Source of the DNA: an uncultured Desulfobacteraceae bacterium
Lineage (GTDB): Bacteria; Desulfobacterota; Desulfobacteria; Desulfobacterales; Desulfatirhabdiaceae
Reading direction: 5' to 3'
DNA: 42,537 bases
NCBI GenBank assembly: GCA_903953895.1
Contig: CAJBLH010000173.1
Span: 1-42,537 of the forward strand
Below are positions 3,857 to 8,217 of this stretch, one piece after another. The position numbers and the translations under genes are program-made. Positions within the stretch are counted from its first letter, which is position 1; every line of letters begins with the position of its first letter. Under the pieces are notes generated by a model, which saw only the letters and a list, made by a program, of their open reading frames with translations, ran no database searches and had not been told where the DNA came from.

Positions 3857-4798
3857 ATGCCCGAAGAGCTTCCCAGACATTTATTTACCAGAGCCTTTGT
3901 CAAAACCATCCTACGCCGCATACTGGCGCTGGCGACCCTGGTGGGGCTCTTTTACGGTCTATCGGCGCTGATATACGCCACCCGGGCCATATTCAAGGTC
4001 AAAATGAATTATGCCGTCGTACTCGAGCGCTTTGGCGGCCGCCGGGAAGCCATCACGGACATCGGCTGGCACGTCCGGCTGCCGTATTTCACCCGCATCG
4101 AGCAAGAAGTCTCGCTGATGAACCAGACGCTGTTTCTGGGCGGAACGCCGGAACCCATGAGAATCATATCCAAGGAAAGTGTGGCGCTGTGGACGTCGGC
4201 TGTCCTGACCTACCGGATTCGTGATCTGAAAACCTGGGCCATCGAGAATCTGGATCCTTTGAACCTGCTGCAAGGAGATTATGACGGCATCGTCAAGGAC
4301 ATCCTTCAGGCCCATGAGGTTAACGCGCTGATCAGCAGCCGTGAAAAAATCAAGGATGATATTTTTGTCGCCTTGAAATCCAGGCCAATCAATGAAGGCG
4401 GCCCCACGCTCGAAAAAAAATACGGCATCGAAGTGGTCAGCTTCGTTCTGAAAGAAACCCGCTTCGGAGACAAACTGGTTGAAGCCACCGAAGAAAAGAA
4501 ACGCAGAGAACTGATTGCTGAAGCCGATAATTATTCCGCCGACCAGGAGGCCAGCCGGATTCGAAAGCTTTATGCCGCTTATCTGGAAAGCATTCAATCT
4601 CTCCAGCAGGCCCTCGGCAGGCCCGACGGTTCTACGGATACGGCGCTCTTGCAGTTTCTGACCCAGCAGAAGTGGGCCACGGCATACGAAAAAAATGTCG
4701 AAGGCCAGAATACCATCGTAATTCAAAATACCCAGGATTCTCCGGCAATTACGCTGCCCACGGCACAGTCGCACCGGAAATCTGCGGGAGAGCGGTAA
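3857..4798 (+). CDS. SPFH/band-7 (prohibitin/HflC-like) membrane protein
   Basis: A 313-residue SPFH-domain protein. The start at 3857 is chosen because AAAGGAGG lies five bases upstream; a longer frame opening at 3806 lacks this and runs into the hydrolase gene. One hydrophobic segment near residues 25-48 (ILALATLVGLFYGLSALIYA) anchors it. The SPFH core follows from NYAVVLERFGGR through the region ending GIEVVSFVLKETRFGD. A charged helical stretch with EATEEKKRRELIAEADNYSA is the usual SPFH coiled-coil arm. Relatives such as HflK/HflC and prohibitins form large membrane rings that house and regulate AAA proteases. Its stop codon overlaps the start of the AAA-AAA-Lon gene (TAATG), which strongly suggests the two proteins work together. 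Confidence 0.88.
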   Translation: MPEELPRHLFTRAFVKTILRRILALATLVGLFYGLSALIYATRAIFKVKMNYAVVLERFGGRREAITDIGWHVRLPYFTRIEQEVSLMNQTLFLGGTPEPMRIISKESVALWTSAVLTYRIRDLKTWAIENLDPLNLLQGDYDGIVKDILQAHEVNALISSREKIKDDIFVALKSRPINEGGPTLEKKYGIEVVSFVLKETRFGDKLVEATEEKKRRELIAEADNYSADQEASRIRKLYAAYLESIQSLQQALGRPDGSTDTALLQFLTQQKWATAYEKNVEGQNTIVIQNTQDSPAITLPTAQSHRKSAGER

Positions 4799-7700
4799 TG
4801 GCGAAAAGACTGACCAAAGAAGTTCGCTATATCAGTCTGCCTGAAAAACGGATTCAGGAAATCAGGCGATTGGTGGCGTCGTGGCCCTATGAAACCAAGG
4901 CATTCATGCGCTCACGCCTGAACCAGTACAGCCCGCCATCAGACTGGCTCAATACCCTGCTCGAAAATGTTCTGTCTTTTTTTTTGACTGCTCCGGAAAA
5001 GCGTTTTGTCATTCTGAAAGATCCGGAAATTTTAACCGACTGGCAGCGCCGGTTTGAAATATCCGGAAAGACCAATCCCCAGCAGGCCTGGAACAAGATT
5101 CTGGAAAAGGAAGTGTCGGCCAAGGACTACACCTATCTGTTGTCTCTGCTTGATAAAGACCTCAGCGACGTCCATGTTCCCGTGGAGCTGACATGCCTGT
5201 TTGACAAAATCTACCGGGCCCATATTCGAAAAGAATATCTCTCTGATCCGTCCATTCCCAAGGCGCCACTGATTCTTTTTATCGGACCGAGCGGCAGCGG
5301 CAAGACATCCACAGTCCGTCAGACCCTCGAACAGGTAATTTTTGTCAATGAGGTGCGGCCCGAGGTGGACCTGGAACAAAAAAAAGAAGAAGCCCTTGCC
5401 GCAGAAACGTTCTGGAAAACCATCGACCAGGTGGATCCGACCTTGGCGGCAGAAATCGCCAGACAAAAAAAAGTGGCGTTTTATCAGTTCCTTTCCAGAG
5501 TGCCGGGAATCAGCCGTCTCCTGAAAAACCGGATCGGGAAGAATCTCTCTCAACTTGAAGAACAGGGGGTGCTAGTCGATTACACCATGATTACACCCAA
5601 CGATTACCAGACGGCTCTGGCCGGAGAGCCCGGCAATTACTTCAAGAAGGCACTCGGAGACCCCCGAAGAACCACCATCCGGCATGTTGAAGAGGCGCAC
5701 AGCGCTTTTGGAAAAACCGAAGGCAAAGACAGCGGACCCGATCGTCAGCAGCGGACTCTGATCGATACCGCCAATATTGTGATCGATGAAATCATCAACG
5801 GCCGCAGAGACTGTCTGCTGATCGCCACGACCGATCAGCCCGAGCGTTTCGATCAGACGATTTACCGGCGTTTTGTGGAAAAAGGAAAAATACTGGATCT
5901 GTCGGATTTCTGGAAAAATCCGGAAAACCTGAAAGAAGTCGTCCGTCTCGAACTGATTCGAAACGATATCGTGGTGACCGACGATGTCTGTCTGCTTCAT
6001 GCCCGCTGTGTTTCCCCGGACCAGGTGCAAACGGCTGTAAACAGCATCTATGCCATTTTTCAGGAAAGATCATTGAAAATCACCCCGGCTTATGTGCGAA
6101 AGCTGGTGCATTCCATCATTGAAATTCAGGGCGGTTTTTCGGCAGCCTATCTGGAGGATTCGCTTCTGGTGAGACAAGCCTTTGAACTTGTTGCCAGAAA
6201 CGCATTCGGCGATTTGTTCGAAAAAGTCGTGGATCGGATGGATCGCCAGGTTCACTGGGATGATTATGTGGGAAAAGTCAAGGATGTGTTTTCCGAAATG
6301 GCCAACAACTGCCTGTATTATAATGTCAGCGAAGAGAAAGGTGTGGTGTTGAACGGCCCGCCGGGAAGCGGCAAAACTTTTCTCATCCGGGCCTGGCTCA
6401 GCGAAAATAGCGACATTCACGATATCGCCACCAGTGCTTCTGCGCTTCAAGACCCGGTAAACCCCTGGGAAGGTGCGGTAGAGAATCTGGAAAAAGTCTA
6501 TGACATCGCCAAAATGATCGCACCTTCTCTGGTGTTTTTTGATGAAGGGGATTCTCTGGCGCCCAAACGCAGCACTTCCGGCGGCTCTCCTTCCGATAAA
6601 CTGACCAACAAATTTCTGAATTTGATCGACGGAGAAATTCCGCTCAACCAGGTGTTTACGGTGCTGACCACCAACCGGCTTGATATTCTGGACCCTGCCC
6701 TGATCCGGTCTAAACGGCTGAAAGTGATGGAGGTGTCCGGACATCTGCGGCTGAAGGATATCACAGATATCGTCCGGCATACGCTAAGAGATATTCCTTT
6801 GGCGTCTGATCTTTCGGTGGAAGCCATTGTGGAATCAGCCAAAGGACTGTGCAACACCCCTGCGGATTATTCGGCTTTTGTGGAAAAAGCCCGATCACTT
6901 CGCAGCACGGAATATGAAGTGTTGCAGCGGATCCGCGATCTGACCCATGCATCGTCCGCCATACGCGATAAATTTGTCAAATTCAATTTCAAAACCTTGA
7001 TGGGGATACTGGATGCCGTGGATGCGCCACAGTCGCTTCGGTCTGTTGTCTATGGCGATCCGGCGGCGTTTTTATCCCGCTACGGAGACGTAATTGCACT
7101 GCTTGAGCCGGTCACCGGCATGGACAGTTATCCGCTGATGCTCTCCCATCTGAGTTCCGCAAGACAGGAAATCTCTCACAGTCCGACAAAAATCGGCAAG
7201 ATGCAGCTTGATGATTTTCTCGAGGCTGAACTCAGCCAGGAACCCCAGGTGGGTTTTATTATCGGGGTAGGGGCCAACGACGTATCCGGTGTGCTGCTGC
7301 CCATCGCTACCAGCCTGACCTACAGCCTGTCTGCAGAAAAAGTTCTTGTGACCGGGGCCGTGTCATCCGGATCAGCAGCAACGGCAGAGCTTGACATGGC
7401 GGTGCAGATGACCCAGCAGTCGGCCCAGGAAGCCCTGACCATGGTGAAAAACTATCTTCAGGAACTTGATCCCAAGGTCAGCATTCCCAAATTGCTGGGG
7501 GAATTTCTGGACCGGTACACCATCCATCATCAACTGCTTTCCGCTTCATACAATGTCGGCGGTCCATCCGCAGGGTATGCGCTGGCGTTGAACACCTTGT
7601 CCGCCCTGCTTCAGATTCCCATCTATCATGATTTTGGAATTACCGGTGCGCCCTGGACCAAAGGTGTTAAAAAAGGCGAGGTGGGCGGCTCCGTCATTAT

Positions 7701-8217
7701 CGGCGGGCATAAGAAAAAAACGGAAAAAGTACTCCAGTATCTGCGCAGAATGTATATGCCGCTTCAAAATTACAAGGATCTGGAAAATGAATTTCTCGTG
7801 AATTACTGGGAACAGGGAAAAGACATTCTGGGGATTTCCAATTTCGGCGAACTGGTGCCGGAAGTCGTCTGTCTGGGGTCCGGATACGAGGCCACGCTGA
7901 AGGAGTTGATCGCCATGCGGATCGACCTTAAACTGAAAAAATCCAGAGGCTACACGGCAAATGACAGCTATAAGGAAACTATTCTTAAAAACAGAAAAAT
8001 TCTGAAAGATCAGCTCGAGACCCGGATCGTGAGCCGTCTGGAAGCCATTCGTAAATACCTCAGAAACCCTGTCCGAGACCCCCACCAGTCACTGGAAGAT
8101 ATTTTTCAGGAACACGGAAAATCCAGGCTTATCGGCATCTCACCGATCCTGAATTTTCTGACCAATCAAAAAAAATGGATAGACCACTGGTCCTTCAGGG
8201 GGCGAAAGCCGCAATGA
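4798..8217 (+). CDS. Large double-AAA protein with C-terminal Lon-type protease domain
   Basis: A 1139-residue protein starting at the ATG overlapping the SPFH stop; an upstream in-frame start lies inside the SPFH gene. AAA domain 1 has Walker A GPSGSGKTS near 163-171, a degenerate Walker B VEEAH near 297-301 and a sensor/arginine-finger stretch LLIATTDQPERF with RRFVEKG. AAA domain 2 has Walker A GPPGSGKT near 520-527, Walker B VFFDEGD with Asp582-Glu583, and TVLTTNRLDILDPALIRSK. The C-terminal part carries a Lon proteolytic domain: GGPSAG with Ser924, then GGHKKK with Lys974 at the position of the Lon catalytic lysine. Both dyad residues are present, so it should be an active ATP-dependent serine protease. 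No membrane segment is evident, so attachment to the membrane would be through the SPFH partner. Standard Lon proteins have one AAA module and a LAN domain; this is a different architecture. Confidence 0.88.
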   Translation: MAKRLTKEVRYISLPEKRIQEIRRLVASWPYETKAFMRSRLNQYSPPSDWLNTLLENVLSFFLTAPEKRFVILKDPEILTDWQRRFEISGKTNPQQAWNKILEKEVSAKDYTYLLSLLDKDLSDVHVPVELTCLFDKIYRAHIRKEYLSDPSIPKAPLILFIGPSGSGKTSTVRQTLEQVIFVNEVRPEVDLEQKKEEALAAETFWKTIDQVDPTLAAEIARQKKVAFYQFLSRVPGISRLLKNRIGKNLSQLEEQGVLVDYTMITPNDYQTALAGEPGNYFKKALGDPRRTTIRHVEEAHSAFGKTEGKDSGPDRQQRTLIDTANIVIDEIINGRRDCLLIATTDQPERFDQTIYRRFVEKGKILDLSDFWKNPENLKEVVRLELIRNDIVVTDDVCLLHARCVSPDQVQTAVNSIYAIFQERSLKITPAYVRKLVHSIIEIQGGFSAAYLEDSLLVRQAFELVARNAFGDLFEKVVDRMDRQVHWDDYVGKVKDVFSEMANNCLYYNVSEEKGVVLNGPPGSGKTFLIRAWLSENSDIHDIATSASALQDPVNPWEGAVENLEKVYDIAKMIAPSLVFFDEGDSLAPKRSTSGGSPSDKLTNKFLNLIDGEIPLNQVFTVLTTNRLDILDPALIRSKRLKVMEVSGHLRLKDITDIVRHTLRDIPLASDLSVEAIVESAKGLCNTPADYSAFVEKARSLRSTEYEVLQRIRDLTHASSAIRDKFVKFNFKTLMGILDAVDAPQSLRSVVYGDPAAFLSRYGDVIALLEPVTGMDSYPLMLSHLSSARQEISHSPTKIGKMQLDDFLEAELSQEPQVGFIIGVGANDVSGVLLPIATSLTYSLSAEKVLVTGAVSSGSAATAELDMAVQMTQQSAQEALTMVKNYLQELDPKVSIPKLLGEFLDRYTIHHQLLSASYNVGGPSAGYALALNTLSALLQIPIYHDFGITGAPWTKGVKKGEVGGSVIIGGHKKKTEKVLQYLRRMYMPLQNYKDLENEFLVNYWEQGKDILGISNFGELVPEVVCLGSGYEATLKELIAMRIDLKLKKSRGYTANDSYKETILKNRKILKDQLETRIVSRLEAIRKYLRNPVRDPHQSLEDIFQEHGKSRLIGISPILNFLTNQKKWIDHWSFRGRKPQ

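Follow-up and report, generated by a model that had tools for sequence, protein, structure and literature searches.

The window analysed here, a stretch of 42,537 nucleotides from an uncultured Desulfobacteraceae bacterium, carries a gene for a small SPFH membrane protein that runs directly into a gene for a large protease with two AAA modules, which raises the question of whether the two products act as a single membrane-associated proteolytic system and, if so, of which kind. The initial annotation of this DNA had described an SPFH stop codon overlapping the protease start, and the overlap was read directly in the sequence. The same annotation had described a 1139-residue protein with P-loops near residues 163 and 520, a Walker B motif at 582-583 and a Ser924/Lys974 dyad, all of which were recovered, the dyad being invariant. 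The locus has the following features:

3857..4798, forward strand: SPFH/Band_7 membrane protein gene (ATG at 3857, TAA at 4796-4798, 313 aa)
4796..4800, forward strand: TAATG stop/start overlap, in which the final A of the SPFH TAA is the A of the protease ATG
4798..8217, forward strand: tandem-AAA-S16 protease gene (1139 aa)
5284..5307, forward strand: AAA1 Walker A, GPSGSGKT, residues G163-T170 (from the AAA1-AAA2 hhalign comparison and the alignment)
6343..6726, forward strand: AAA2, classic AAA domain, residues 516-643 (Pfam AAA, 1.9e-28), with Walker A G520-T527, Walker B D582-E583 and the arginine pair R637/R640
7216..7788, forward strand: S16 (Lon-type) protease domain, residues 807-997 (Pfam Lon_C, 29.8 bits, cut-off 21.1)
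7567..7569, forward strand: codon of the catalytic-type Ser924 (GGPSAG)
7717..7719, forward strand: codon of the catalytic-type Lys974 (IIGGHKKK)

The product of the upstream gene belongs to the SPFH/Band 7 proteins, with a Pfam Band_7 domain at residues 47-232 that scores 60.5 bits against a curated cut-off of 23.6 (2.8e-16). It comprises, in order, one hydrophobic helix near residues 22-44, the SPFH domain, a coiled coil and a conserved C-terminal motif, FLxQQKWAxAYEKN. Its predicted structure (pLDDT 77, pTM 0.54) matches the structures of stomatin, HflK/C, QmcA and prohibitin, and the NCBIfam HflK and HflC models gave no match to the protein at E ≤ 1. Conservation is highest in the coil (0.86) and lowest in the C-terminal 20 residues (0.41), the motif directly ahead of this tail being near invariant. 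No NfeD neighbour was found in the window, where the downstream gene encodes the AAA-AAA-S16 protease and the upstream genes encode a hydrolase and a TraB protein.

We searched for further copies of the protease in 84,980 species, using two AAA1 peptides as the query, and kept 80 of the 96 confirmed loci. In 74 of these 80 loci, an SPFH gene immediately precedes the protease gene on the same strand (tblastn), and in the remaining six the contig begins inside the protease gene, so that upstream sequence is absent. Thus, every protease copy with upstream sequence has an SPFH neighbour, and the conserved pair postulated initially withstood the check for adjacency that had been suggested for it. 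The distance from the SPFH stop to the protease start ranges from -71 to 202 bases over 84 measured pairs, which include ten loci from 297 genomes sampled in the phylum; the loci of this sample and of the larger scan overlap, so their counts are not independent. Among the 297 genomes, 18 rows passed E 1e-20, seven of which match the AAA2 region only, whereas the full-length protease occurs in 11 genomes and adjoins an SPFH gene in all 11. The SPFH protein (E ≤ 1e-20) is present in exactly the same 11 genomes. Profile searches that scored few candidates per genome likewise found only these 11, for the S16 domain (E ≤ 1e-8) as well as for AAA1 (E ≤ 1e-5), arguing that the sample holds no free-standing relatives at those thresholds.

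The titles of the 80 loci carry Deltaproteobacteria or Desulfo- and Geobacter-type names with five exceptions, namely a Nanoarchaeota record (L097), a SAR324 record (L099), a 'bacterium' (L050) and two 'Proteobacteria' (L069 and L089). SAR324 is a putative host, with 1 positive among 52 genomes of that phylum. Carriers with a named strain include Desulfosarcina alkanivorans, Desulfopila aestuarii and Geothermobacter hydrogeniphilus. Other phyla may hold more, since one query peptide has a different sequence in the most divergent archaeal copies, which are absent from the listed loci. By their record titles, the loci also include the deltaproteobacterial symbionts Delta 1 and Delta 4 of Olavius worms (L037 and L048), both of which have the pair. 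Protein alignments were built from 59 sequences picked at less than 90% identity and from 75 sequences with archaeal copies added, leaving out ten of the 80 loci that have no full-length protease frame; the truncated L045 was left out of alignment A3, and L013 was left out of alignments A1 and A2 for a reported TAA that is probably the gene's own end, as its contig is equal in length to that of L078, in which the protease frame is open.

The upstream TraB and hydrolase genes, which had been considered possible members of the same unit, were rejected as such, being found in four and five, respectively, of the 48 loci with at least 5 kb of upstream sequence; whatever the upstream length, they occur in six and ten, respectively, of 81 stretches that include the window. 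A gene for a CbbQ/NorQ-type AAA protein at 887-1774 on the reverse strand, which diverges from the TraB gene, has a homologue upstream of the pair in 4 of the 48 loci. The SPFH-protease linkage is kept while the other tested neighbours change.

The pair also extends to Archaea. The protease was found in 2 of 371 genomes in the phylum of the Nanoarchaeota record, in 4 of 103 genomes in the order of that record and in 1 of 184 in the order of the second find, which amounts to five different genomes whose copies are 35-49% identical to the window protease. Directly upstream, an SPFH profile match is present in four of the five (E 7e-34, 2.5e-97, 1.6e-31 and 4.8e-10), two of these SPFH genes being cut by the contig end; in the fifth genome, the contig start truncates the protease itself. 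We rejected mis-binning as the origin of the Nanoarchaeota record, as its contig also carries archaeal IF2-gamma and TrmY genes, both over their NCBIfam cut-offs, and three more genomes of the phylum have the SPFH-protease pair. By sequence reading, an IF2-gamma-like gene adjoins the pair in a second genome and a TrmY-like gene in a third; a fourth genome has, next to the pair, genes that score over cut-off for archaeal transcription factor S and signal peptidase. This check covered the four genomes other than G797; overall, archaeal-marker genes over NCBIfam cut-offs adjoin the protease in at least two of the five genomes (rows L097, L169, L171, L175, L176 and L177). Assembly chimeras may nevertheless lie behind archaeal records. 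In the tree, a branch with support 89 (not starred) sets the archaeal copies apart, and their very long branches make the midpoint root among archaea weak. One archaeal copy (G815; rows L175 and L176) has N-E at the Walker B of AAA2 and L-E in place of the acidic pair of AAA1 and keeps the Ser-Lys dyad, so its ATPase sites are possibly altered. Adjacency that is kept over the distance between bacteria and archaea while other neighbours change is the strongest evidence that the two proteins would function jointly.

In the ATPase part of the protease, AAA2 has a VCP-like ATPase as its best PDB sequence match (4.9e-42). AAA1 was related to AAA2 by profile comparison (hhalign probability 77.5%, E 1.9e-5, about 85 columns) and gave weak PDB matches to UvrA (1.5e-4) and Cdc48 (7e-4); judging by these scores, it is the more diverged module. 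The residues E298-E299 and R357-R358 of AAA1 are invariant among the 59 aligned proteins. In the 75-protein alignment, the Walker A lysines of both modules, R637/R640, which are presumably arginine fingers, and both S924 and K974 are kept in all sequences covering them. The model of the protease (pLDDT 76, pTM 0.56) is weak at residues 795-870 and in the active-site loops. Its top Foldseek matches are p97 and Cdc48, and a second model comparison placed the AAA2 region closest to proteasome ATPases (Z 21.0 over 254-256 residues), while NVL, Rix7 and Cdc48 could be aligned over both modules (473-489 residues, Z 18.4-19.3) with a high rmsd of 8.5-10.7. With two AAA modules, the D2 module carrying two conserved arginines, the protein belongs to the tandem AAA proteins of CDC48 type, although it scores far short of the NCBIfam CDC48 model (90.9 bits, cut-off 802.65); the NCBIfam FtsH model fails too, with 62.1 bits over residues 514-698 only and a cut-off of 600. 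The initial description of an AAA-AAA-Lon chain therefore stands for the two AAA modules and for the Lon-type S16 domain, but not for the ATPase part, which is a tandem AAA of the Cdc48/p97/NVL type other than the Lon AAA. Many translocating AAA proteins have an aromatic pore-loop residue; at position 557, the presumed equivalent, just 8 of the 59 aligned proteins have one. The N-terminal region of the protease (residues 1-130) has no PDB profile match below E 0.17.

A role in defence was rejected, as the eight PADLOC matches (IetA, TRIP13, mad8 and MkoA models) are confined to the AAA parts of the protease and none of the PADLOC models matches the SPFH protein. Plasmid searches with the protease gave no match at E ≤ 1e-20. 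Viral contigs were matched at no fewer than 22 loci, which among the matches listed cover only residues within 375-678, at 22-34% identity.

The protease domain belongs to Lon (S16) in the broad sense, with a Lon_C score above the cut-off and with S924 and K974 unchanged in all 59 aligned proteins and, once archaeal copies are added, in all 75. In an hhalign comparison with five Lon_C regions from this genome (91% probability, E 1.1e-6), S924 is paired with the serine of GPSAG and K974 with the second lysine of GGxKxK, which we take to be the catalytic one. The domain finds its best PDB profile matches in 'putative protease La homolog' domains (E 3.2e-5), presumably those of archaeal LonB. Judged on sequence, the dyad, the motifs and the module layout seen earlier are real and reflect more than chance. 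The genome has nine Lon_C matches over the cut-off, comprising three strong Lon proteins, the window protease and five weaker matches that sit in open frames of 497-811 aa.

Assignment to either LonA or LonB fails on several grounds. The catalytic Ser and Lys of LonA and LonB are separated by exactly 42 residues, as stated in a section of PMC9569914, whereas 49 residues lie between them in 75 of 75 proteins here. LonB is marked in the same source by an Asp before the catalytic Ser and by a membrane segment inside its AAA module; here, all 75 proteins have Pro ahead of Ser, and 19-residue hydropathy windows showed no such segment in the AAA part of the window protease. A Pro in this position is shared with LonA, but the NCBIfam lon model (endopeptidase La) gives 42.7 bits against a cut-off of 608.05, and the protein has two AAA modules, the second Cdc48-like. 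Hence, the likeness to Lon proteases consists in the S16 domain with its Ser-Lys dyad, and the difference in the two classic AAA modules that replace their one Lon AAA. Among the Lon_C architectures of 117 proteins tabulated in 2008, none has two AAA modules in the portion of the source cited (PMC2605481).

The question of where the two proteins would meet depends on the orientation of the SPFH helix. Lys and Arg are in excess on its N side in 62 of 71 proteins in 20-residue windows (6 equal, 3 opposite) and in 55 of 71 in 12-residue windows (14 equal), a modest bias with a mean K+R of 5.6 vs 4.0. Among controls from the same genome, HflK and HflC behave in the same way as the SPFH protein in 12-residue windows and L112, which by its look we take to be of the QmcA/stomatin type, is opposite; in 20-residue windows, HflK ties and HflC is reversed. 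HflK and HflC are described as periplasmic in the cited part of PMC12624060. The charge pattern points to an SPFH domain outside the cytosol and to a protease across the membrane from the cage, not inside it, a topology that is only favoured, given the mixed controls. Some 19-residue window above 1.6 on the Kyte-Doolittle scale occurs in 55 of 71 proteases. The sole such stretch of the window protease, at 818, is inside the S16 domain and can be read from its position as a strand of the protease and not as an anchor; the protein shows no clear membrane anchor in these windows.

The arrangement imagined in the initial annotation, a cage with a cytosol-facing SPFH domain that directly surrounds the protease hexamer, seems unlikely to us. 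Proteolysis driven by ATP requires a cytosolic enzyme and there are SPFH proteins oriented towards the cytosol, and both the strict gene pairing and the mixed charge controls would suit this arrangement; the excess of Lys and Arg on the N side, in 62 and 55 of the 71 proteins, speaks against it, as does the opposite charge pattern of L112 among the paralogues tried. Strict pairing would suit an enzyme and its substrate as well, and the SPFH protein might then be mainly a substrate or a regulated scaffold that the protease trims or turns over, opening or closing the cage. This would agree with the poor conservation of the C-terminal 20 residues and has a precedent in the NfeD-type protease PH1510, for which cleavage of the stomatin PH1511 is reported (PMC13086221, in part). 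However, a 1139-residue double-AAA unfoldase seems costly for a single substrate, and the well-conserved coil and near-invariant motif ahead of the tail are unlike a disposable end, so we regard this explanation as improbable. It is very unlikely that the genes are merely co-expressed, with a soluble quality-control protease beside an SPFH protein that organises membranes on its own: the protease without a clear membrane anchor would fit such an arrangement, but the two-gene linkage is strict across Bacteria and Archaea despite changing neighbours, and presence and absence of the two genes are identical in the 297 genomes.

With the domain make-up, the conserved ATPase and Ser-Lys residues, the strict adjacency and the co-occurrence in bacteria and archaea observed, we propose with moderate confidence that the SPFH protein and the protease form one membrane protein quality-control machine. 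Being kept together in bacteria and in tiny archaea, the pair would probably represent an undescribed machine that removes membrane proteins. The SPFH protein would form a domed membrane cage, with the SPFH domain most likely on the outer face, that gathers substrate. Its cytosolic partner would be a hexamer of two stacked Cdc48-like AAA rings atop an S16 protease chamber, recruited beneath the cage probably via the basic N-terminal tail of the SPFH protein. The two rings would pull membrane or mislocalised proteins from the bilayer and feed them into the hexamer's own S16 chamber, where they would be cut. By analogy, a mode of action like that of HflKC-FtsH or Erlin-p97-proteasome appears to be the best explanation. 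In the cited part of PMC12624060, Erlin1/2 are proposed to aid p97-driven degradation from the lumenal side in ER-associated degradation, and no stable copurification of prohibitins with the m-AAA protease was seen, so the pairing of an SPFH protein with a protease need not mean a stable complex. Counted against the proposed machine are the lack of a clear anchor on the protease, the modest charge bias with its mixed controls, the mostly non-aromatic position 557, the Walker B changes of G815 and the poor S16 model at the active-site loops. The pair also comes on top of an existing set in the same genome, namely FtsH, HflK, HflC, a CDC48 protein (932 bits) and three strong Lon matches. More tentatively, the machine could be a self-contained prokaryotic counterpart of Erlin-p97-proteasome, in which an outer SPFH dome would gather membrane proteins for a cytosolic one-chain machine that extracts and destroys them; on the same Erlin-like reading, it may have been assembled from Cdc48-like and LonB-like parts in archaea of DPANN type and reached Desulfobacterota by a two-gene transfer.

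Among the best matches listed from open-licence PMC, with subscription papers and preprints outside this set, titles and abstract starts describe neither the pair nor a Cdc48-like/S16 fusion, in line with the initial expectation of a pair not already described. Hinderhofer 2009 divided SPFH proteins into twelve subfamilies and gave NfeD partners for three of them, SPFH1, SPFH2 and SPFH5; its main text does not contain the word Lon (PMC2636767). We rate the pair as an SPFH-protease system whose protease has a new architecture, classic tandem AAA plus S16, that is common to sulfate- and metal-reducing bacteria and small-genome archaea. The role of SPFH cages for neighbouring proteases is unsettled. 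Such cages are known from nearly all life, and a compact co-travelling pair that unites motor and protease in a single polypeptide could make this question testable.

The pair resembles HflK-HflC/FtsH, as well as prohibitin/m-AAA, in the coupling of an SPFH membrane protein to an ATP-dependent protease and in the match of the SPFH fold. FtsH is a membrane-anchored single-AAA zinc protease, whereas the partner here combines two AAA modules with a serine-lysine protease and shows no clear anchor. FtsH is called transmembrane in the cited part of PMC12624060. The SPFH protein also differs from HflK-HflC in lacking a match to their NCBIfam models, and the genome has a separate FtsH and separate HflK and HflC that pass these cut-offs. 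SPFH-NfeD operons (stomatin PH1511-PH1510 and QmcA-YbbJ) similarly join an SPFH gene in one operon to a partner able to carry a protease domain, but the partner here is neither NfeD nor ClpP-like. Tandem classic AAA modules are shared with Cdc48/p97/VAT, NVL and Rix7; in contrast to these, the protein described here carries a fused protease and falls far short of the NCBIfam CDC48 cut-off, and the genome has a separate CDC48. Finally, if the proposed topology holds, the pair would share with Erlin1/2-p97-proteasome an SPFH cage across the membrane from a soluble Cdc48-type motor (PMC12624060, in part), with the difference that the system described here is prokaryotic and unites motor and protease in a single chain.
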